Of a DNA stretch of 64,000 nt, positions 42,008 through 52,252 are shown in pieces. The position numbers and the translations under genes were made by a program. The stretch's first letter is position 1. Each line of letters starts with the position of its first letter. The notes beneath the pieces were generated by a model that saw only the letters and a program-made list of their open reading frames with translations, searched no databases and was not told the DNA's origin. Source of the DNA: Labrys sp. WJW (GTDB lineage: Bacteria > Pseudomonadota > Alphaproteobacteria > Rhizobiales > Labraceae); NCBI RefSeq assembly GCF_001676615.1, contig NZ_LYXZ01000001.1, positions 186,001-250,000 on the forward strand, given 5' to 3'.

Positions 42008-43198
42008 ATGCGCCTGGCTGTTCTTACGTCCCATCCCATCCAGTACCAGGCCCCGATCTTCCGGGAGCTCGCCAGGCGCATGGATCTGGAGGTCTTCTTC
42101 GCCCACCGCCCCACGCCCCGGCAGCAGGCCGATGCCGGCTTCGGGGTTGCATTCGACTGGGATATCGACCTCCTCGCCGGCTATCCCAACCGCTTCCTCG
42201 CCAACAAGGCCAGGAACCCGGGCGTGGACCACTTCTTCGGCTGCGATACGCCGGCCATTGCCCAGGCATTGCAGGAGGGCGGCTTCGATGCCCTGCTCGT
42301 CTGCGGTTGGGCGCTGAAATCCTATCTCCAGGGCATTGCCGCCGCCCGGCGCCTCAACATGCCCGTCCTGGTAAGGGGGGACAGCCATCTGCTGACACCA
42401 CGTCGGCGGCTGAAGGCCTGGGCCAAGCAGGCGGCCTATCCCCGCCTGCTGCGCTTCTTCGATGCGGCGCTCTATGTCGGTCAGAACTCGCTGGCCTATT
42501 ACCGCCATTATGGCTATCCGGCCGAGCGGTTGCACTTCTCACCCCATTGCGTCGACACGGACTGGTTTGCCGCACGGGCGACGCCGCAGGCCCGCCAGGC
42601 CCTGCGCGCCGACCTCACAATTGCCGAGGGTAGCCGGGCCATCGCATTCGCGGGCAAGCTGGTCGAACGCAAGCGGCCCCTCGACCTCATCGAGGCCGCC
42701 GCCTTCTGCCGCGCCGAAGGGCGCGAGATCGAGGTGATGATTGCCGGCGATGGCCCGATGCGCGAGGCGGTTCTGGCACAGGCCGCGCAACTCGGGGTGC
42801 GGCTGCATTTCCTCGGCTTTCGCAACCAGAGCGAAATACCGGCCGTCTATGCGGCCTGCGACGGCCTGGCGCTGCCCTCCTCCGGGCAGGAAACCTGGGG
42901 CCTGGTGGCCAATGAGGCCCAGGCCTGCGGGCGACCCGTCGTCGTATCGGACCAGTGCGGCTGCGCGCCCGACCTCGCCGCCGACCGCGACACCGGACGC
43001 ATCTTCGAAACCGGCAATGTCGGGGCACTCGCCTCGGCTCTCGCCGACCTGCCGACCGGCGCTGCTGCACAGAAGGCCCTTGCGTCGCTGGTGCGCCGCT
43101 ACAGCGTGGGTGCCGCCGCCGAGGGCATCGAGGCGGCCCTGTCTTCCTGCCTCGAGAGAGCCTCCTTCCATCACCGGACATCGGAGGTCCCGACCTGA
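42008..43198 (+). CDS. Glycosyltransferase, GT4 family
   Basis: This 396-residue GT-B enzyme opens RLAVLTSHPIQYQAPIFREL (2-21), a motif shared by a recognisable EPS GT4 subgroup. It has LVCGWALKSYLQGIAAAR, the donor-domain FAGKLVERKRPLDLIEAAAF, and SSGQETWGLVANEAQACGRP for the E-x7-E motif. It is soluble. Its stop overlaps the start of the next gene by one base (TGATG). Confidence 0.92.
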   Translation: MRLAVLTSHPIQYQAPIFRELARRMDLEVFFAHRPTPRQQADAGFGVAFDWDIDLLAGYPNRFLANKARNPGVDHFFGCDTPAIAQALQEGGFDALLVCGWALKSYLQGIAAARRLNMPVLVRGDSHLLTPRRRLKAWAKQAAYPRLLRFFDAALYVGQNSLAYYRHYGYPAERLHFSPHCVDTDWFAARATPQARQALRADLTIAEGSRAIAFAGKLVERKRPLDLIEAAAFCRAEGREIEVMIAGDGPMREAVLAQAAQLGVRLHFLGFRNQSEIPAVYAACDGLALPSSGQETWGLVANEAQACGRPVVVSDQCGCAPDLAADRDTGRIFETGNVGALASALADLPTGAAAQKALASLVRRYSVGAAAEGIEAALSSCLERASFHHRTSEVPT

Positions 43199-44634
43199 TG
43201 CCGATGTCGGCCACTTCCCCGCGCTCGTCAGCGCCGCTGCCTGGCGCCGTGATCGTCGGCGCAGTGCTGCTCGCCATCCTGAACCTGCCGGGCGAGAACG
43301 CCCTGCTCACCACTTTCAGCCTGGTCGTCCTCGTGGCCGGCGTCGCCCTGCTATGGCGGCCGGGCGAGCCGCCGATCGGGCTTTTCATCTTCGCCTATCA
43401 ATGGCTGCAGGCGTCGATATCGGCCTTCCATGCCAATTGGCTCGGCATCGATGTCAGCGCCTATACGATCTATGGCGGGGACAACAAGTCGGCGATCCTG
43501 CTGACCCTGGCCGGCCTGCTCTTCCTGGCGCTGGGCATGCGGCTCGGCAGCGGCCCGCCCGACAGGGCTGCGAGCCGGCAAGCACGGGAAGCCGTGCTGG
43601 CCCGGCCCCTCGCCACGTGGTTCTTCCTCTATGTCGCGGCTTCGATCGTCGCGGTCGGTGCCCTCCAGGCTGCCGCGCTCAGTCCCGGGCTTGCGCAGCC
43701 GCTCCTGGCCCTGGCCGGGTTGAAATGGGCGTTCTTCATGATGTTCGCCTATGCATCCTTCGTGCGAAACCAGCTGGGCAACCCCTTGTTTTCCTGTTCC
43801 TTTCTTGCCGAATTGGCCATGAGCACGGGCGGGTATTTCTCCGATTTCAAGACGGTGATGTTCTTCACCCTCTTTGCCACGGCCATGGCCGGAACGCGCC
43901 TGCGCGGCCTTCACATCGCGGGCGGAGCGATCCTGGTCTGCCTGATCGTCGTCAGCGGGATCCTGTGGACGGCCATCAAGGAGGATTATCGCAATGCCGC
44001 CTCCGGCGGCTCGGCCTCGCAGGCCGTCACGCTCGACCTCGGCGACCGGCTGGGCACCATAGCCCAGCTCCTCGGCAGGCTCGACGGCGCCTCGATGTCG
44101 GAGGCGACCGGGAAGATGCTTCACCGCATCTCCTATGTCGAGTTGTTCGCAGTAGTTCTCGCCCGCGTGCCGCAGACCATTCCCCATGAAAAGGGCGCGC
44201 TCCTCCTGGATGCGGCGAGCCGCCCCTTCATGCCGCGCATCCTGTTTGCCGAGAAGAGCCAGGTCGACGACACCCGCCGCACCAACTATTACACCGGCGG
44301 CCTGTCGGGCACCTATCGCGGCACCTCGATCAGCCTGGGCTACATGGCCGAGCTCTATATCGATTTCGGTCCCTTGCTGATGATGGCCGTCATCCTGCTC
44401 TTCGGCTGGCTCTATGGCCGCATCTACCGCTGGCTGGTGCATTCTCCGCGAGCCGGACCGCTGCTGGGCTTCACCTCGGCCTGCGCCATCCTGGCCCAGG
44501 CCGCTTTGCTGGAAGTCAGCCTGGCGAAACTGGTCGGCGGCGTGATGGTGTCGGTCCTCCTCACCGCCCTGTTCATCCGGCTGGTGGCGCCACGCATGCG
44601 CTCCTGGCTGGAGGCCAGGCCGGCAGGACGCTGA
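43198..44634 (+). CDS. Polymerase-like multi-spanning membrane protein of the EPS locus
   Basis: This 478-residue protein has about ten to twelve hydrophobic spans and one long soluble loop near 280-390 (residues such as TNYYTGGLSGTYRGTSISLG). The pattern of spans, the loop and the region YMAELYIDFGPLLMMAVILL resemble O-antigen/oligosaccharide-repeat polymerases rather than Wzx flippases or acyltransferases. This would be a second polymerase in the locus. The start overlaps the GT4 stop by one base. Function is inferred only from topology and neighbourhood. Confidence 0.75.
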   Translation: MPMSATSPRSSAPLPGAVIVGAVLLAILNLPGENALLTTFSLVVLVAGVALLWRPGEPPIGLFIFAYQWLQASISAFHANWLGIDVSAYTIYGGDNKSAILLTLAGLLFLALGMRLGSGPPDRAASRQAREAVLARPLATWFFLYVAASIVAVGALQAAALSPGLAQPLLALAGLKWAFFMMFAYASFVRNQLGNPLFSCSFLAELAMSTGGYFSDFKTVMFFTLFATAMAGTRLRGLHIAGGAILVCLIVVSGILWTAIKEDYRNAASGGSASQAVTLDLGDRLGTIAQLLGRLDGASMSEATGKMLHRISYVELFAVVLARVPQTIPHEKGALLLDAASRPFMPRILFAEKSQVDDTRRTNYYTGGLSGTYRGTSISLGYMAELYIDFGPLLMMAVILLFGWLYGRIYRWLVHSPRAGPLLGFTSACAILAQAALLEVSLAKLVGGVMVSVLLTALFIRLVAPRMRSWLEARPAGR

Positions 44635-44657: not shown

Positions 44658-45605
44658 ATGCCCCCCTGCGTTCTCCTGACGGCCTTGCGGGAAAACCCCG
44701 CTCTCTCGAAAGCCCGCAGGCTGACGGTGCTGCATCCGCCGTCGGCCTTCCGGATCGCCGCCGGCGACGAGGTCCCCGACATCGTGTTGCACCTCGACAG
44801 CGGCTATGTCGGCCTCGCCGACCTGCCGCAATTGCGGCGCCAGATCAGGGCCCATCCTGCGGCCAGGCACTTCCTGTTCTCGGAATCCGACTGGCCCTAC
44901 GCCGTGCTGCCAGGAGCCTATCCATCCCTCACCAGGGCCCTGCCCTGGGCGCGGAGCTGGAGCTATCTGCCCGACCCCGACCACTCCGTACCGGCTGCCC
45001 CCTTGCCGCCGAAGGAGCAGGCCTGTCTCTTCTCCTTTCTGGGCCGGACCGGCACCCACCCGATCCGAGAGCGTCTCCTGGCCCTCGACAGCCCGGATAC
45101 GCCGTGCCTCGATCTCGCAGCGGCGCCGGACCGCTTTACGGATTTCGATTACGACAGGACTTATCGCGAACTGCTGCTCGGCTCGCAATTCGTCCTTTGC
45201 CCGCGTGGCTTCGGCGCCGCCAGCATCCGCCTTTTCGAGGCGATGGCCCTCGGCCGCGCACCGGTGATCATCGCCGATGCCTGGCTGCCGCCTCCCGATA
45301 TTGCCTGGCGGGACTTCAGCCTGTTCGTCGCCGAAAAGGACGTCATGCGCATACCTCACATCCTGAACGAGGCTCGCGGGGAGGCCGCTTCCATGGGCGA
45401 ACGCGCGCGCCGGGTCTTCGCGGCGCATTTCGCACCGGACGTCTTCTTCGACCGCCTGCTCGCCATGCTGGTCACTCTCCCCCACCAAACGGGCAGCGCC
45501 GCGATGGCCGGGCGCGCCTGGAGGGCACTGAGCTGGCGCGAGGGCTATTCGCTGGCGCATCGGGTCAAGACCCGGTTCCACACCGCGGCGGGGACGAGGT
45601 CTTGA
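44658..45605 (+). CDS. Exostosin-like glycosyltransferase (GT47 type)
   Basis: This 315-residue protein has the hallmark of the exostosin domain, SQFVLCPRGFGAASIRLFEA followed by MALGRAPVIIADAWLPP (about 177-214), preceded by KEQACLFSFLGRTGTHPIRE. GT47-like enzymes in bacteria are a minority group and transfer, for example, glucuronic acid, xylose or galactose. The UDP-glucuronate decarboxylase-like gene at 52365 could supply UDP-xylose. The gene starts 23 bases after the polymerase-like gene, and its stop overlaps a TTG start (TTGA). Confidence 0.85.
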   Translation: MPPCVLLTALRENPALSKARRLTVLHPPSAFRIAAGDEVPDIVLHLDSGYVGLADLPQLRRQIRAHPAARHFLFSESDWPYAVLPGAYPSLTRALPWARSWSYLPDPDHSVPAAPLPPKEQACLFSFLGRTGTHPIRERLLALDSPDTPCLDLAAAPDRFTDFDYDRTYRELLLGSQFVLCPRGFGAASIRLFEAMALGRAPVIIADAWLPPPDIAWRDFSLFVAEKDVMRIPHILNEARGEAASMGERARRVFAAHFAPDVFFDRLLAMLVTLPHQTGSAAMAGRAWRALSWREGYSLAHRVKTRFHTAAGTRS

Positions 45606-46792
45606 CCCTGCGCTGTCTCCATGTGGTGCCGACCTATCTGCCGGCACTACGCTATGGCGGGCCTATCCATGCCGTGCACGGCCTGTGCCGCGCCTTGGCA
45701 GGCCGGGGCTGCGACGTGCAGGTCTACACCACCAATGTCGACGGCGAGGGCGTCCTGCCCGTTCCGACCGACAGGCCAGTGCAGCTCGACGGGGTGAATG
45801 TCCACTACTTTCCGGCCGGGCTGGGACGGCGCCTCTACCGCTCGCCCGCCATGGGACGCACGCTGGCGCAGAACATCGCATCCTTCGATGTCGTGCATCT
45901 GCATTCGGTGTTCCTGTGGCCGACCACCGCCGCGGCCAGGCTCGCGCGACGCCACGCCATTCCCTATCTGCTCGCCCCGCGGGGAATGCTGGTCGGCCCC
46001 CTGATCCGGCGCAAGAGCCGGCTGCTGAAATCGACCTGGATCCAGGCCTTCGACCGGGCCAACCTCGCCGGCGCCGCCGCCCTGCATGTGACCAGCCGAT
46101 CCGAACGCCTCGAAATCGAGAAGCTGGGGCTGCCGGCCCGGGCATTCGCCCTGGTGCCCAACGGCATCGACATGCCGCCCATCGGTGCCGGCCTCCCCCC
46201 AAGGGATCATGCCCGGCCCTATATCCTGTTTTTGGGGCGGATCAGCTGGAAGAAGGGCATCGAACGCCTGATCGATGCCATGCAATTCGTTGGCGATGCC
46301 GATCTCGTCATCGCCGGCAATGATGACGAGGGTGAAACCGCCCGGCTGACGGCACGCGCGGCAGCATTGGGGCTCGATGCCCGTATCCGCTTCGTCGGTC
46401 CCGTGCACGGCGAGGAGAAATGGTCCCTGCTGCGCAACTGCGCCGCCTTCGCGCTGGCCTCCCATTCGGAGAATTTCGGCAACGCCGTCCTGGAGGCGAT
46501 GGCCTGCGCCCGCCCCGTCATCGTCACCCCCGAAGTGGGGCTGGCCGATGTGGTCGCCGACGCCGGCTGCGGCCTCGTGGTCGAAGGCTCTGCTCCGGCG
46601 CTCGGCGCGGCGCTTTCCTCGCTGCTGGCAGACCCGGATCTGGCCGCACGGCTGGGACAGGTCGGCGAAAAGACGGCACGCGAGCAATTCTCCTGGCCGG
46701 GCATTGCAAGGGCCATGCTCGATGTCTACCAGGAGGCCATCCTCGCTCAGGCGGGACAAGCCGCTCTCGCCGGAAGCCCCTTGCATGTCTGA
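45602..46792 (+). CDS. Glycosyltransferase, GT4 family
   Basis: This 396-residue GT-B enzyme opens CLHVVPTYLPALRYGGPIHA (5-24), has HSVFLWPTTAAARLARRH and LAPRGMLVGPLIRRKS, and a donor domain with LFLGRISWKKGIERLIDAM and SHSENFGNAVLEAMACARPV. The start is TTG 45602, overlapping the exostosin stop; there is no in-frame ATG ahead of the conserved opening. It overlaps the next gene by eight bases. Confidence 0.92.
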   Translation: MTLRCLHVVPTYLPALRYGGPIHAVHGLCRALAGRGCDVQVYTTNVDGEGVLPVPTDRPVQLDGVNVHYFPAGLGRRLYRSPAMGRTLAQNIASFDVVHLHSVFLWPTTAAARLARRHAIPYLLAPRGMLVGPLIRRKSRLLKSTWIQAFDRANLAGAAALHVTSRSERLEIEKLGLPARAFALVPNGIDMPPIGAGLPPRDHARPYILFLGRISWKKGIERLIDAMQFVGDADLVIAGNDDEGETARLTARAAALGLDARIRFVGPVHGEEKWSLLRNCAAFALASHSENFGNAVLEAMACARPVIVTPEVGLADVVADAGCGLVVEGSAPALGAALSSLLADPDLAARLGQVGEKTAREQFSWPGIARAMLDVYQEAILAQAGQAALAGSPLHV

Positions 46793-47574: not shown

Positions 47575-49383
47575 TTGATCATCCTCGGCCTCAATGCCTA
47601 CCACGCCGATGCCGCGGCCTGCCTTCTCAGAGACGGGCAGATCGTCGCCGCCGCCGAGGAGGAGCGCTTTCGCCGCATCAAGCATTGGGCAGGGTTTCCC
47701 AGCCAGGCCATCGCCTATTGCCTGCAGGAGGCCGGTGTCGGGCTTGGGGTTGTCGACCATGTCGCCGTCAACAGCGACCCGAAGGTGCATCGCCTCGAGC
47801 GCCTGGCCCATCTGGCGCGTCACAGGCCCGATCTCGCCCTCGTGCTCGACCGCTTCAGGAACAGGCGCAAGCGCCTCTCCGTCGCCGATGAGCTGGCCGT
47901 GGCCTTTCCCGGACAGCGTTTCAAGGGCTCGGTGCATCGGGTCGAGCATCACCTCGCCCATCTGGCATCGGCCTTCTTCGCCTCCCCTTTCGAGGAGGCA
48001 GCCGTCCTGTCACTCGACGGCTTCGGCGATTTCTCCTCCACGGCGTGGGGCAGCGGGCATGGCAATGCGATCGCCATCGAAAAACGGGTACTGTTTCCCC
48101 ATTCCATCGGCCTGTTCTACCAGGCGCTCACCCAATATCTCGGCTTTCCGCACTATGGCGACGAATACAAGGTCATGGGCCTGGCGCCCTATGGCAGGCC
48201 CACCTTCCTCGACAGGCTGCGGCGCGTCGTCAGGCTTGAAGCGGCGGGAACTTTCGCTCTCGATCTTCGCTATTTCCGGCACCATCGCGAGAAGATCGCC
48301 TTCGACTGGCAGGGCGGGGCCCCGGTCTTCGCCCCGCTTTACTCGGACGCCTTGGAAGGCCTGCTCGGCCCGGCGAGGGCGCCGAACGAAGCACTGACCG
48401 AACGCCATCACGACATCGCATCCTCGGTCCAGGCCCTCTATGAGGAGGTCCTGGACCACATCCTGCAGGCCGTCTGGGACAAATATCGCCTGCCGAACCT
48501 CGCTTTGGCCGGCGGCTGCGCCCTCAATTCGGTGGCCAATGGCAAGATCCGGCAAACCACCGCCTTCCGGCATCTTTATGTGCAGCCCGCAGCCGGCGAC
48601 GCCGGCGGTGCTCTCGGCGCCGCCCTGGCTCTGTGGCACCAAACCGGGGGCAGGCGCACAGCCGCGATGGACCATGCCTATTGGGGACCGGCCTATGCCC
48701 CCGATGACATCGATCAGCTCTTGGCGGCTGAAACCGCCAATCTCGCCGCCATGGGCTGTGACATCCGGCATTTTGGCGATGATGGCGAGCTTTGCCGGGA
48801 GACGGCCTCAGCCATCGCGGCCGGCCATGTCGTCGGCTGGTTCGACGGGCGCATGGAATGGGGACCGCGCGCGCTCGGCAGCCGCTCCATCCTGTGCGAC
48901 CCCCGCCGGGCCGACATCAAGCAGCTTCTCAACCACAAGATAAAGCGCCGCGAGTCGTTCCGGCCGTTCGCGCCGTCCATTCTCACCGAGCATGCCGCTG
49001 ATTGGTTCGAGGGCATCGACGAGGTGCCGTTCATGACCGAGGTCCTCCCGGTCCGGCGCGACAAGCGCGCGCTCGTGCCGGCAATCACTCATGTGGATGG
49101 CACGGGCCGGCCGCAAACCGTGCAACACCATGCCAACCCGGCCTATCACACGCTGATTTCCGCCTTCTTCGCGCAGACCGGCGTTCCCATGGTGCTCAAC
49201 ACCTCCTTCAACGAGAACGAGCCTATCGTCTGCACCCCGCGCGAGGCGCTCGACTGCTTCCTGCGCACGCGCATGGACATTCTGGTGCTCGGGCATGTGA
49301 TAATCCGGCGCCGACAGGACGTCGCGCCTGCCGCCATGCCCGACAGCCGGCACGCCGCCGATAAGCATGTCGCCGGTTCCTGA
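47575..49383 (+). CDS. Carbamoyltransferase, NodU/CmcH family
   Basis: This 602-residue protein starts at TTG 47575 with AAGGG seven bases upstream. It has the two-part NodU architecture. The N-terminal Kae1-like domain has GLNAYHADAAACLL, AAAEEERFRRIKHW, VEHHLAHLASAF (metal-binding histidines) and LSLDGFGDFSS, then GDEYKVMGLAPYG. The C-terminal domain has GWFDGRMEWGPRALGSRSIL and VLNTSFNENEPIVCTPREAL. It would carbamoylate a sugar hydroxyl using carbamoyl phosphate and ATP, decorating the EPS much as NodU does Nod factor. The exosortase gene starts inside its 3' end (17-base overlap). Confidence 0.95.
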   Translation: MIILGLNAYHADAAACLLRDGQIVAAAEEERFRRIKHWAGFPSQAIAYCLQEAGVGLGVVDHVAVNSDPKVHRLERLAHLARHRPDLALVLDRFRNRRKRLSVADELAVAFPGQRFKGSVHRVEHHLAHLASAFFASPFEEAAVLSLDGFGDFSSTAWGSGHGNAIAIEKRVLFPHSIGLFYQALTQYLGFPHYGDEYKVMGLAPYGRPTFLDRLRRVVRLEAAGTFALDLRYFRHHREKIAFDWQGGAPVFAPLYSDALEGLLGPARAPNEALTERHHDIASSVQALYEEVLDHILQAVWDKYRLPNLALAGGCALNSVANGKIRQTTAFRHLYVQPAAGDAGGALGAALALWHQTGGRRTAAMDHAYWGPAYAPDDIDQLLAAETANLAAMGCDIRHFGDDGELCRETASAIAAGHVVGWFDGRMEWGPRALGSRSILCDPRRADIKQLLNHKIKRRESFRPFAPSILTEHAADWFEGIDEVPFMTEVLPVRRDKRALVPAITHVDGTGRPQTVQHHANPAYHTLISAFFAQTGVPMVLNTSFNENEPIVCTPREALDCFLRTRMDILVLGHVIIRRRQDVAPAAMPDSRHAADKHVAGS

Positions 49384-50215
49384 AGCCAAAGCGCCCTCGC
49401 GTACCGTCTCCTGCCAAGCCGTCTATGGGTGGTGCCTCGTCCTCGTCTGCCTGGAATGGCTATATTATCGGCTGGCCCAGCAGCCTTTGCGGCAGATCGG
49501 CGACCTGCCCAATGTGATCTCGGTCCTGGAAGTGATCGAGATCGCGATGATCGTCCGCCTGATCGGCCGCGAGCAGCGCGATACCCCTTTCCGGGCCGGT
49601 GAGGCCGCCTTCGCCCTCGCAGCGATGGCCACCTGTGTGCTCGTGCTGCGCCAAATACCACTCGCCGCCGCGCTGGCGCTCGCCATCCTTGCGGCGTGGC
49701 GTCTGCGAAAGCGCCCTTCCTGCCGCGCCTCGGCCCTCGCGTTGCTGGCTTTCATCGCCCAATTCGTGCTTCTGGGCTGGCCTTTCCTCGTCCTTCACAA
49801 TGTCGTCGGCCTGCTCGATGCCACGGTGGTGCGAACCGCGCTCCAGATGGCGGGACAGGGGGTGTCGGGCTATGGCACCTATATCCTCCGCCCCGCCGAC
49901 AATATCGGTTTCGACGTGATGTGGGGCTGCGCCACCTCGACCACTTTGATCCAGAACCTGACGGCCTATGCCATCATCGCCATCGGCTTCGGGGGACCGC
50001 TCCGTCGTTCCGACCGCAAGGCATTTCTACTGATCATTGGCACCACCTTCGCCTTGAACTGGCTGCGGCTGGTACTGATCTGCGCCTCGAAGGAAGGATA
50101 TCTGGTCTGGCATGAAGGCACGGGCGCGAGCTTCCTGGCAGCGTTCTATGCCGTGTTGATCCTCGCCCTTTCCTATTACCGGGCCAGGCCCGCGCAAATG
50201 CAACGCTCCGCATGA
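49367..50215 (+). CDS. Divergent exosortase/archaeosortase-family transpeptidase
   Basis: This 282-residue membrane protein has about seven or eight spans and ends in the exosortase catalytic pattern: Cys188 in DVMWGCATSTTLIQ, Arg234 in ALNWLRLVLI, and His249 in VWHEGTGASF. These three residues, spaced as in known exosortases, are thought to cleave C-terminal sorting signals and join proteins to another molecule at the outer face of the inner membrane. EpsI-type sequence is not fused to it. It is the penultimate gene of the coupled EPS operon; its stop overlaps the next start by four bases. The nearest candidate substrate is the CTERM-type protein at 51605-52252. The subtype could not be assigned. 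Confidence 0.8.
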   Translation: MSPVPEAKAPSRTVSCQAVYGWCLVLVCLEWLYYRLAQQPLRQIGDLPNVISVLEVIEIAMIVRLIGREQRDTPFRAGEAAFALAAMATCVLVLRQIPLAAALALAILAAWRLRKRPSCRASALALLAFIAQFVLLGWPFLVLHNVVGLLDATVVRTALQMAGQGVSGYGTYILRPADNIGFDVMWGCATSTTLIQNLTAYAIIAIGFGGPLRRSDRKAFLLIIGTTFALNWLRLVLICASKEGYLVWHEGTGASFLAAFYAVLILALSYYRARPAQMQRSA

Positions 50216-50697
50216 CCCGCCTGTTCCATCTCCTGGCTGCCGCGCTCGTGGCGTGTTCCCTCGCCCTGGCCATCCGTCAGGCTCGCCTTCCCCCCCAAAC
50301 TGCCCCGGAAGCCCAGATCGCGTCGGCTTTCGCGAAGGCCGGCTTTGCGCTCTCGGCCCAACGCAAGACCGCGCTCGGGCCCGAACTCTCCTTCACGCGG
50401 CCCGATTGCGCCATGCCGACAAGAGCAGTGCTGACGGAAACCATCCACCGTGACGCCACCCCACTCCTCGCCGACATGTCGAGCGCCGATGAAGAGCTGA
50501 TCACCGTCTATGGCGGTACCGCCGTGCCCAGCCTGCATTTGCGAGATCTCGCCTGGCCGTGGTTGCGGCGAAAGCTCGGCGTCATGCTCGGCCTTTCCCG
50601 CTCGAGCCCCTGGGACTCAATCGGCCTCGCCGTCTTCTCGCCCCGCCAGTGCAGGAACAACGGCCTCGACTGGTCAGCTCTGCTCACCAATCCCTGA
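50212..50697 (+). CDS. Small membrane-anchored protein coupled to the exosortase
   Basis: This 161-residue protein has an N-terminal signal-anchor (FHLLAAALVACSLALAIRQA, about 5-24) and a soluble periplasmic remainder with TRPDCAMPTRAVL, ELITVYGGTAVPSLHLRDLA and FSPRQCRNNGLDWS. I do not recognise the family. Its position directly after the exosortase, with ATGA overlap, matches that of EpsI-type partners, but the sequence shows no clear EpsI signature. Two cysteines (in PDCAM and RQCRN) could form a disulfide. Confidence 0.75.
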   Translation: MTRLFHLLAAALVACSLALAIRQARLPPQTAPEAQIASAFAKAGFALSAQRKTALGPELSFTRPDCAMPTRAVLTETIHRDATPLLADMSSADEELITVYGGTAVPSLHLRDLAWPWLRRKLGVMLGLSRSSPWDSIGLAVFSPRQCRNNGLDWSALLTNP

Positions 50698-50704
50698 GCA
50701 GCAC

Positions 50705-51550
50705 TCAGGTCCAATTGAAATTGTGGGCCGCGTTGCGCGTGTCCTCTTCATAGCGGTCCTCCCACACCCGCGTGAGGAAGATCACCAAGGCGAATTCCGA
50801 CATGAACAGGACGAGCGCCATGAACGCCCAGACGATCGGCGCTGCGACCAACCGCAACCCATCGATGTGCGGATAGTGGCTGAGGGCCAGATTGGCCCCT
50901 TCCATCACGAAGCCGATCTGCAGGCCGATGCCGACAATGATCACCAGGATGGATATCGGTTCGCGCCATGCCGTCCGCAGCGAAGTCAGGATCGGTCGGC
51001 GTTCGTCCAGGGACGCGGCAGGTCCCACCAGCGCCAGGCCGGCCGTCGCCAGGAAGCCGAGCGCATAGGACAGCAGGACGGCTCCACGCACGAACTGCTC
51101 ATGCGGCACCGGCGAAACCGGCAAGGGCGGATGCTTGAGTAGGCCGATGACGGCCCAGCACGACAACACGTAGAAACCCATGCGCCGTGCCCGCGCGCCA
51201 GTGGGTATGACGGGGCGCCATTCGCCATGGATGAGCCCCCGATGTAGGCGCAGTGCAATGCGGGCAAGCAGATAGGTCGTCAGCGCATGAAAGGCGACGA
51301 GCAGGCCGATCTGAACCAGCCCCGAAGGCCACGACAGCAGCAAGGACAGTGGTGGCACCACCTCCTGGATGGCGAAGATCAACCAGGCTGCCAAGAACAG
51401 ACCTGGCTGGCGTATGATCGTCACGCATGCCTGCCGCCAGCTTTCGGCAAAAATATTGTAGGGCCGCGACGACGCAAAGAACCCGGCGATACCGATAGCC
51501 ACCAGGATCACGAAAATGACCAGTGAAACCTCGATGGGCAAAGAAGGCAT
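50705..51550 (-). CDS. Uncharacterised multi-spanning membrane protein
   Basis: This 281-residue inner-membrane protein has about six hydrophobic segments (for example around 7-26, 50-70, 80-98, 128-140, 155-175 and 200-255) and no motif I recognise. It ends EDRYEEDTRNAAHNFNWT. It is on the minus strand, 54 bases downstream of the CTERM-type gene and only seven bases from the convergent exosortase partner gene. Co-transcription with the CTERM-type gene is likely and would link it to the same system. Confidence 0.75.
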   Translation of the reverse strand: MPSLPIEVSLVIFVILVAIGIAGFFASSRPYNIFAESWRQACVTIIRQPGLFLAAWLIFAIQEVVPPLSLLLSWPSGLVQIGLLVAFHALTTYLLARIALRLHRGLIHGEWRPVIPTGARARRMGFYVLSCWAVIGLLKHPPLPVSPVPHEQFVRGAVLLSYALGFLATAGLALVGPAASLDERRPILTSLRTAWREPISILVIIVGIGLQIGFVMEGANLALSHYPHIDGLRLVAAPIVWAFMALVLFMSEFALVIFLTRVWEDRYEEDTRNAAHNFNWT

Positions 51551-51604
51551 GTGGATTTGCCCTAACGCATGATGGCGAAATGGATGGCGATCACCAAGCT
51601 AAGA

Positions 51605-52252
51605 TTATGAACCGCTAGTCGATAACAGGCCTCGGAGCCATCTCACCCCATCCCGCATTTGCCGGCGCCCCAGCACTAGGGCCAGAAGAGCCACCACCAG
51701 ATAGGAAATCGTACTCATCCCCGGCACCGGCCCGGGAATTTGCACGAGGGATACGTCATCCACGCGCAACGGAGCTGTTAGCAAGCCTGGCAAGTTCGTG
51801 AAGATTAGATTTGTCAGGCCTGCAGGCAAGTTGACCGTAAGCGTATAAAGATTGTAGCCACCCAGGCCAATAATCGTAATGCCATAGGTCAAATTATAAG
51901 TGCTTCCACCTATCTGCACGCTAAAATTTAAAGTTCCAAGAGAAAGAGAAATCTGTGGCGCGAGATAGAAGCTCAACTGATAGGTACCGGCGGTAGGAAT
52001 ATTGATGGATTGCGAAATCGTGCCGCCGCCTGTGGCAATCGTGCCATAAAAACTCCCGCTGTGCGCCGGAGGATTGAGAAGTATTGTGCCTTCTTGTGTT
52101 CGCCCTGACCCTCCAGCATAAGTCCATCCGGTCGTCGTTTCAAAGCCACCATTGGTGATGATCTGGGCGCGGGCCTGGGCAAGCAGAATTGGCGAAACGA
52201 TGAGGACGAATGCCAAAAGCAATGGCCCGCATACCTTGAGCAGAAATTTCAT
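51605..52252 (-). CDS. Secreted protein with PEP-CTERM-like C-terminal sorting signal
   Basis: This 215-residue protein starts at ATG 52252, with GGGAGAG just upstream. The signal peptide covers about 1-29 (ending AQARAQ). The mature part begins ITNGGFETTTGWTY and ends in VDDVSLVQ, the jelly-roll pattern common in PEP-CTERM proteins. The tail has three parts: IPGPVPG (172-178), a hydrophobic span (about 183-195), then RRQMR (196-200) plus 15 more residues. This is the layout of exosortase substrates, with PGPVPG instead of PEP and a longer tail after the arginines. Its base composition looks lower in GC than the neighbours, suggesting separate acquisition. Confidence 0.8.
   Translation of the reverse strand: MKFLLKVCGPLLLAFVLIVSPILLAQARAQIITNGGFETTTGWTYAGGSGRTQEGTILLNPPAHSGSFYGTIATGGGTISQSINIPTAGTYQLSFYLAPQISLSLGTLNFSVQIGGSTYNLTYGITIIGLGGYNLYTLTVNLPAGLTNLIFTNLPGLLTAPLRVDDVSLVQIPGPVPGMSTISYLVVALLALVLGRRQMRDGVRWLRGLLSTSGS

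Follow-up and report, generated by a model that had tools for sequence, protein, structure and literature searches.

The question raised by this locus is whether a membrane enzyme and a secreted protein encoded close to it form a protein-sorting pair and, if so, to which class of sorting system they belong. The window, the whole 64,000-nucleotide stretch of the Labrys sp. WJW genome analysed here, had been read in a first-pass annotation as carrying a dedicated exosortase–target pair inside an exopolysaccharide (EPS) locus. The setting is as described: the enzyme gene is surrounded by glycosyltransferase and EPS genes, and the Labrys locus is an EPS cluster with a sugar transferase, Wza/Wzc-like proteins, Wzm/Wzt, several glycosyltransferases, a carbamoyltransferase and a polymerase. 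The genes that concern us are as follows.

43198–44634, + strand: polymerase-like protein, weak NCBIfam match to the exosortase Y (XrtY)-associated Wzy
45602–46792, + strand: glycosyltransferase, weak NCBIfam match to the exosortase Y-associated glycosyltransferase
47575–49383, + strand: NodU-like carbamoyltransferase, its 3' end overlapping the start of the exosortase gene
49367–50215, + strand: candidate exosortase-superfamily integral membrane cysteine protease/transpeptidase of an unnamed subtype, 282 aa, assigned from TIGR04178 and invariant residues
50212–50697, + strand: small exosortase-associated protein, 161 aa, with an N-terminal membrane segment and conserved C66 and C147
50705–51550, − strand: 281-aa membrane protein of unknown function, its gene separating that of the target from those of the enzyme and accessory
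51605–52252, − strand: candidate sorting target, a secreted beta-sandwich protein with a C-terminal sorting signal, 215 aa

The carbamoyltransferase may possibly carbamoylate the polysaccharide, and the two XrtY-associated-like matches hint at a wider kinship among exosortase-carrying EPS loci. The membrane protein 50705–51550 is present at the orthologous locus of Labrys sp. KNU-23; no counterpart was seen in other exosortase loci.

By simple hydropathy, the product of 49367–50215 spans the membrane about six times (5–7 in relatives), and Cys188, Arg234 and His249 stand exactly where they had been numbered, in the contexts GFDVMWGC, FALNWLR and VWHEGTG, respectively. These three residue types are conserved in the exosortase/archaeosortase superfamily (PMC4343526). 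Taken as a single sequence, the Labrys enzyme gives marginal evidence: TIGR04178 (exo_archaeo; cut-off 23) scored 20.7 bits (E 3.8e-4) using hmmscan and 25.1 bits, above the cut-off, in a whole-genome scan, which found this to be the only exosortase-like gene in the WJW genome. No match was obtained from Pfam, from a PDB sequence search or from a PDB fold search, and no named exosortase subtype model (XrtA–XrtX, CrtA–C or ArtA–F) matched at E ≤ 10. The predicted structure, which is of low confidence (pLDDT 54), shows the helices expected of such an enzyme, with a short beta element immediately preceding Cys188. Orthologues with 85% identity are found in Labrys sp. KNU-23 and L. okinawensis. 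Comparison with the wider family settled membership of the exosortase superfamily: TIGR04178 matches 22 of 25 family members at E ≤ 0.1 (best 3.6e-7), and an alignment of the 25 sequences, with identities to the Labrys enzyme down to 14%, has only four invariant columns, which in the window correspond to the following codons.

49928–49930, + strand: Cys188, predicted nucleophile
50057–50059, + strand: Asn231, of an N-x-x-R motif
50066–50068, + strand: Arg234, predicted catalytic residue
50111–50113, + strand: His249, predicted catalytic residue

On these comparisons, the product of 49367–50215 belongs to the exosortase superfamily, in an unnamed subtype.

The candidate target 51605–52252 has a signal-like hydrophobic segment at its N-terminus, and its gene lies 1.39 kb from that of the enzyme, within the 1.5 kb stated earlier. 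The protein ends in ...VDDVSLVQ-IPGPVPG-MSTISYLVVALLALVLG-RRQMRDGVRWLRGLLSTSGS, in which three parts can be distinguished.

51719–51739, − strand: signature motif IPGPVPG, residues 172–178
51668–51718, − strand: C-terminal hydrophobic segment MSTISYLVVALLALVLG, residues 179–195
51653–51667, − strand: basic cluster RRQMR, residues 196–200, followed by a 15-residue tail

The jelly-roll-like body that had been proposed is modestly supported: a low-confidence model (pLDDT 53) matches CBM35/CBM6 beta-sandwiches, the DUF642 profile matches weakly and the choice-of-anchor C model (TIGR04362) scores 24.9 bits (E 2e-5), below its cut-off of 120, suggesting a distant relation only. A DUF642 link for the bodies of other tail proteins was rejected, as it had no Pfam support. 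The tail of the window protein matched no CTERM model, including that for PEP-CTERM (TIGR02595).

Five Labrys genomes were compared; the enzyme is present in three of them, and the tail is found in the same three and is absent from the other two. In two of these genomes a second tail protein, which the first-pass annotation had not mentioned, is encoded away from the enzyme (G000:C2:51929 and G001:C2:318333), with 73% identity to the window target over the whole protein. All five Labrys targets share PGP[VI]PG, invariant except at the V/I position, and a post-arginine tail of about 15–20 residues; the longer post-arginine tail noted earlier thus holds for Labrys but does not extend across the wider family. 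A DNA search of the 7.6 Mb WJW genome for IPGPxPG gave two genuine CTERM tails only, and the tail profile described below likewise finds two targets and nothing further genome-wide. A loose IPGPxPG match on C22 of the same genome was discarded because it has no CTERM frame, and a weak tail match at G001:C2:58842 was discarded as chance because of an internal stop. With the triad and Asn231 as the sole invariant set and only two genuine CTERM tails in the WJW genome, the pattern is more than chance.

The start of the gene 50212–50697, also absent from the earlier description, overlaps the exosortase stop codon (ATGA). A counterpart with paired cysteines lies directly downstream of the exosortase, in an overlapping or abutting gene, at all 23 loci examined (that at L092 was read by eye from a fused frame). 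The window protein and four relatives have no NCBIfam match at E ≤ 10, EpsI (TIGR02914) included, and the window protein belongs to no Pfam family; the accessory is therefore not recognisably EpsI. Both enzyme and accessory are annotated as hypothetical proteins in Rhizobium sp. WL3, the single annotated case encountered, where they lie within a polysaccharide locus.

We then turn to the tails of relatives. The neighbourhoods of related enzymes were searched for small proteins that combine a signal peptide with a C-terminal span and a basic end. The PxP tails found were VPGPLEGVGLP (twice, locus L058), APGPDFGLG (L060), APAPLLA (L057), SPAPELS (L041), VPGPIAGAGLP (L086), APGPVAGVGLP (L090), APGPDVDIGL (L097), APFPIAALGLP (L083), VPAPLAGAAGP (L096) and those of four tandem TPGPVLG-type proteins (L098). 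The usual tail outside Labrys is [VA]PGP[IV]AGAGLP followed by a span and arginine, from which the Labrys version, PGP[VI]PG, diverges in having no GLP. The PGPVPG-type motif recognised earlier is real, and is the form taken in Labrys by a more widespread family of PGP tails. PxP-filtered tail ORFs numbered 15 within 3 kb of an enzyme (149 kb) versus two farther away (261 kb); both of the latter are spurious, and two of the former also look spurious (L088 5657–8164 and L094 11559–12092). Against the PEP-, VPLPA-, VPEID- and other CTERM models the tails of relatives fall below the cut-offs, except for marginal LPXTG scores, which are taxonomically implausible.

Assignment to a subtype depends on both the enzymes and the tails. 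CrtA, CrtB, CrtC, XrtN, ArtD and other models are each matched by scattered single members of the family (1e-4 to 1e-7), and these weak matches, together with the strict NCBIfam thresholds, could be taken to mean that the enzyme is a divergent representative of a subtype already named, such as XrtD, XrtR, XrtX or a cyanoexosortase. We consider this unlikely: apart from the generic model, no model matches more than four of the 25 members, the tails reach no CTERM cut-off other than the marginal LPXTG one, and the two-cysteine accessory matches neither EpsI nor any other family. The earlier failure to find a named subtype therefore extends to the family, and none of the subtype models, CTERM models and literature searched describes a PGP-type tail or its pairing with such an enzyme. 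An enzyme tree (unrooted and built without named reference exosortases) groups the sequences by tail type, into a PGPxxGxGLP clade, a PxPLL clade, a PAGP/AGP pair and a Labrys branch that includes a metagenomic relative and has the tail PGP[VI]PG. Judged by sequence, the family is a new exosortase subtype within a superfamily that was itself already known; it is spread sporadically through the Alphaproteobacteria, with Labrys as a divergent branch that has its own PGP[VI]PG tail.

Profile searches found the enzyme in 20 of 397 Hyphomicrobiales genomes, the 20 spanning 16 genera that include Labrys, with further relatives in other Alphaproteobacteria; six candidates per genome were scored in this order-wide scan, so the 'negative' genomes may conceal a few enzymes. 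A tail profile was built from 14 tails found near related enzymes and run on the same 397 genomes; as its seed was picked by the PxP pattern, PxP invariance within it is partly by construction. At E ≤ 1e-3 there were 30 tail matches covering the motif, all of them in 13 of the 20 enzyme-positive genomes and none in the other 377 (Fisher p 1e-19, with many positive genomes having supplied tails to the profile). Among positive genomes that supplied no tail the count is 5/12 versus 0/377 (p 1.1e-8), and when Labrys is left out it is 3/10 versus 0/377 (p 1.3e-5). The non-training matches, those in G945 among them, fall on proteins that have a signal peptide, differ in their bodies and terminate in, for example, VPGPVAGAGLPLVAAAAGYLAWRRRR or APGPIAGAGLPVVLSLLGFLAFRRR; most are unlinked to the enzyme, being on other contigs or at positions away from it. 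Several bodies have 'DDV/DNV' just before the tail, as in the window protein (VDDVSLVQ-IPGPVPG). In related genomes the tail matches, often unlinked, number as many as six; the enzyme–target pairing proposed in the first-pass annotation stands, whereas a one-to-one relationship does not, with two targets here and more in relatives. Seven of the 20 enzyme-positive genomes have no match to the tail profile, and some of these probably carry another tail type, for example GGPLPLLG at L087.

These data bear on whether the tail is a sorting signal at all. A membrane span followed by basic residues ends many secreted proteins, and the post-arginine tail in Labrys is unusually long, so the 51605 protein might be an ordinary single-pass, C-terminally anchored membrane protein that is never cut, with the exosortase nearby by coincidence. 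Such an anchor would hardly be present or absent together with the enzyme, unlinked targets included, be borne by unrelated bodies in other enzyme-positive genomes and follow the enzyme clade in its type, and we regard this explanation as very unlikely. That 49367 is an exosortase for substrates with other tails, the 51605 protein being processed otherwise or not at all, would fit the distant loci L040, L084, L085, L092 and L094, which have no recognisable adjacent tail protein, but is highly improbable given the one exosortase-like gene in the WJW genome, the two targets that are its only profile tails and the specific co-occurrence of enzyme and tail.

The locus thus very probably encodes an exosortase-type protein-sorting system composed of enzyme, target and accessory. 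Neither outcome named in the first-pass annotation as counting against it, an enzyme with no exosortase match above background or a triad and tail that vary between homologous loci, was observed. Superfamily membership, conservation of the triad, tail architecture, enzyme–tail co-occurrence and accessory linkage are read from the sequences; cleavage and its site, the acceptor, surface attachment and the role of the accessory are what we infer, the cutting-and-transfer model being taken by analogy from the published exosortase model (PMC1569441; triad, PMC4343526). The signal peptide of the target 51605–52252 would direct its export, and the C-terminal span would retain it in the inner membrane with the PGP motif on the periplasmic side. 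The 49367–50215 enzyme would probably cut the tail at or near this motif, using Cys188 with Arg234 and His249, and the new C-terminus would pass to an acceptor, the likeliest being a nucleophile linked to lipid or polysaccharide; the carbohydrate-binding-like body would then be left at the cell surface or within the exopolysaccharide. A CBM35/CBM6-like body, even from a low-confidence model, fits a protein in or on polysaccharide. The overlapping two-cysteine protein 50212–50697 would serve as an obligate accessory in a position comparable to that of EpsI. A tentative idea, which we put forward with considerable doubt, is that it maintains Cys188 in the reduced state or carries the target, in thioester linkage, to the final acceptor; if it does join the chemistry, the subtype would be an obligate two-protein transpeptidase and not a single enzyme.

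The closest comparison is with the PEP-CTERM/EpsH (XrtA) system, in which EpsI is encoded directly next to EpsH (PMC1569441). Both have a multi-span Cys/Arg/His enzyme, a tripartite signal of motif, span and basic residues, a frequent EPS neighbourhood and a small accessory directly downstream. The Labrys family differs in that its motif is P-G-P rather than P-E-P, it does not match the XrtA/EpsH model and it often has few targets, and its accessory, unlike EpsI, has the conserved cysteine pair and does not match the EpsI model. Archaeosortase A/PGF-CTERM (PMC4343526) also has a C-terminal processing signal and is a distant homologue by the generic TIGR04178, but is archaeal, uses a PGF motif and couples processing to lipid attachment of the S-layer protein. 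The GlyGly-CTERM/rhombosortase and MYXO-CTERM/myxosortase systems (PMC3237569, PMC11980579) share the tripartite signal, the many-to-one pairing and the tendency of single targets to adjoin the protease gene; their protease families are unrelated and their motifs are different. XrtD/VPLPA, XrtN, XrtR, XrtX and CrtA/B/C belong to the same superfamily and receive the weak matches from single members, but none covers the family and the target motifs, where known, are others.

In the Hyphomicrobiales, a plant- and soil-associated order, these data would define an exosortase subtype that has a sorting signal and an accessory of its own, and PGP-type tails should allow the surface proteins of carriers in this order to be listed directly from sequence. 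Labrys and other genomes that combine a single enzyme with one or two targets offer minimal systems for exosortase biology, in which the long-standing questions of where the signal is cut and to what the target is attached become testable.

Outside Labrys, EPS homologues flank about nine of 25 loci, and EPS linkage was therefore rejected as a defining trait; it is common in the wider family, not general. Two protein matches from the class scan (G377 and G455) were rejected, as only the N-terminal half aligns and does so inside other transporters. A tblastn search of plasmids with the Labrys enzyme found none, and the same search with a GLP-type relative found three rhizobial plasmids. Family members occur on megaplasmids of nodule isolates, Rhizobium gallicum plasmid pRgalIE4872d (L147) and a Microvirga ossetica plasmid (L146), in stretches for which no gene annotation is listed. 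Three genomes have two family exosortases each: L086/L088 (G945), L089/L095 (G881) and L041/L058 (G453). At L041 (8395–12320) the exosortase is flanked by phosphopantetheinyl-transferase-like and FemAB/GNAT-like ORFs, named by reading the sequence, with a 68-aa PAP-tail ORF just beside the enzyme. At L098 (9207–10125) four consecutive tiny secreted proteins (about 54–106 aa) with TPGP/APxP..AGPWG tails adjoin a family exosortase.
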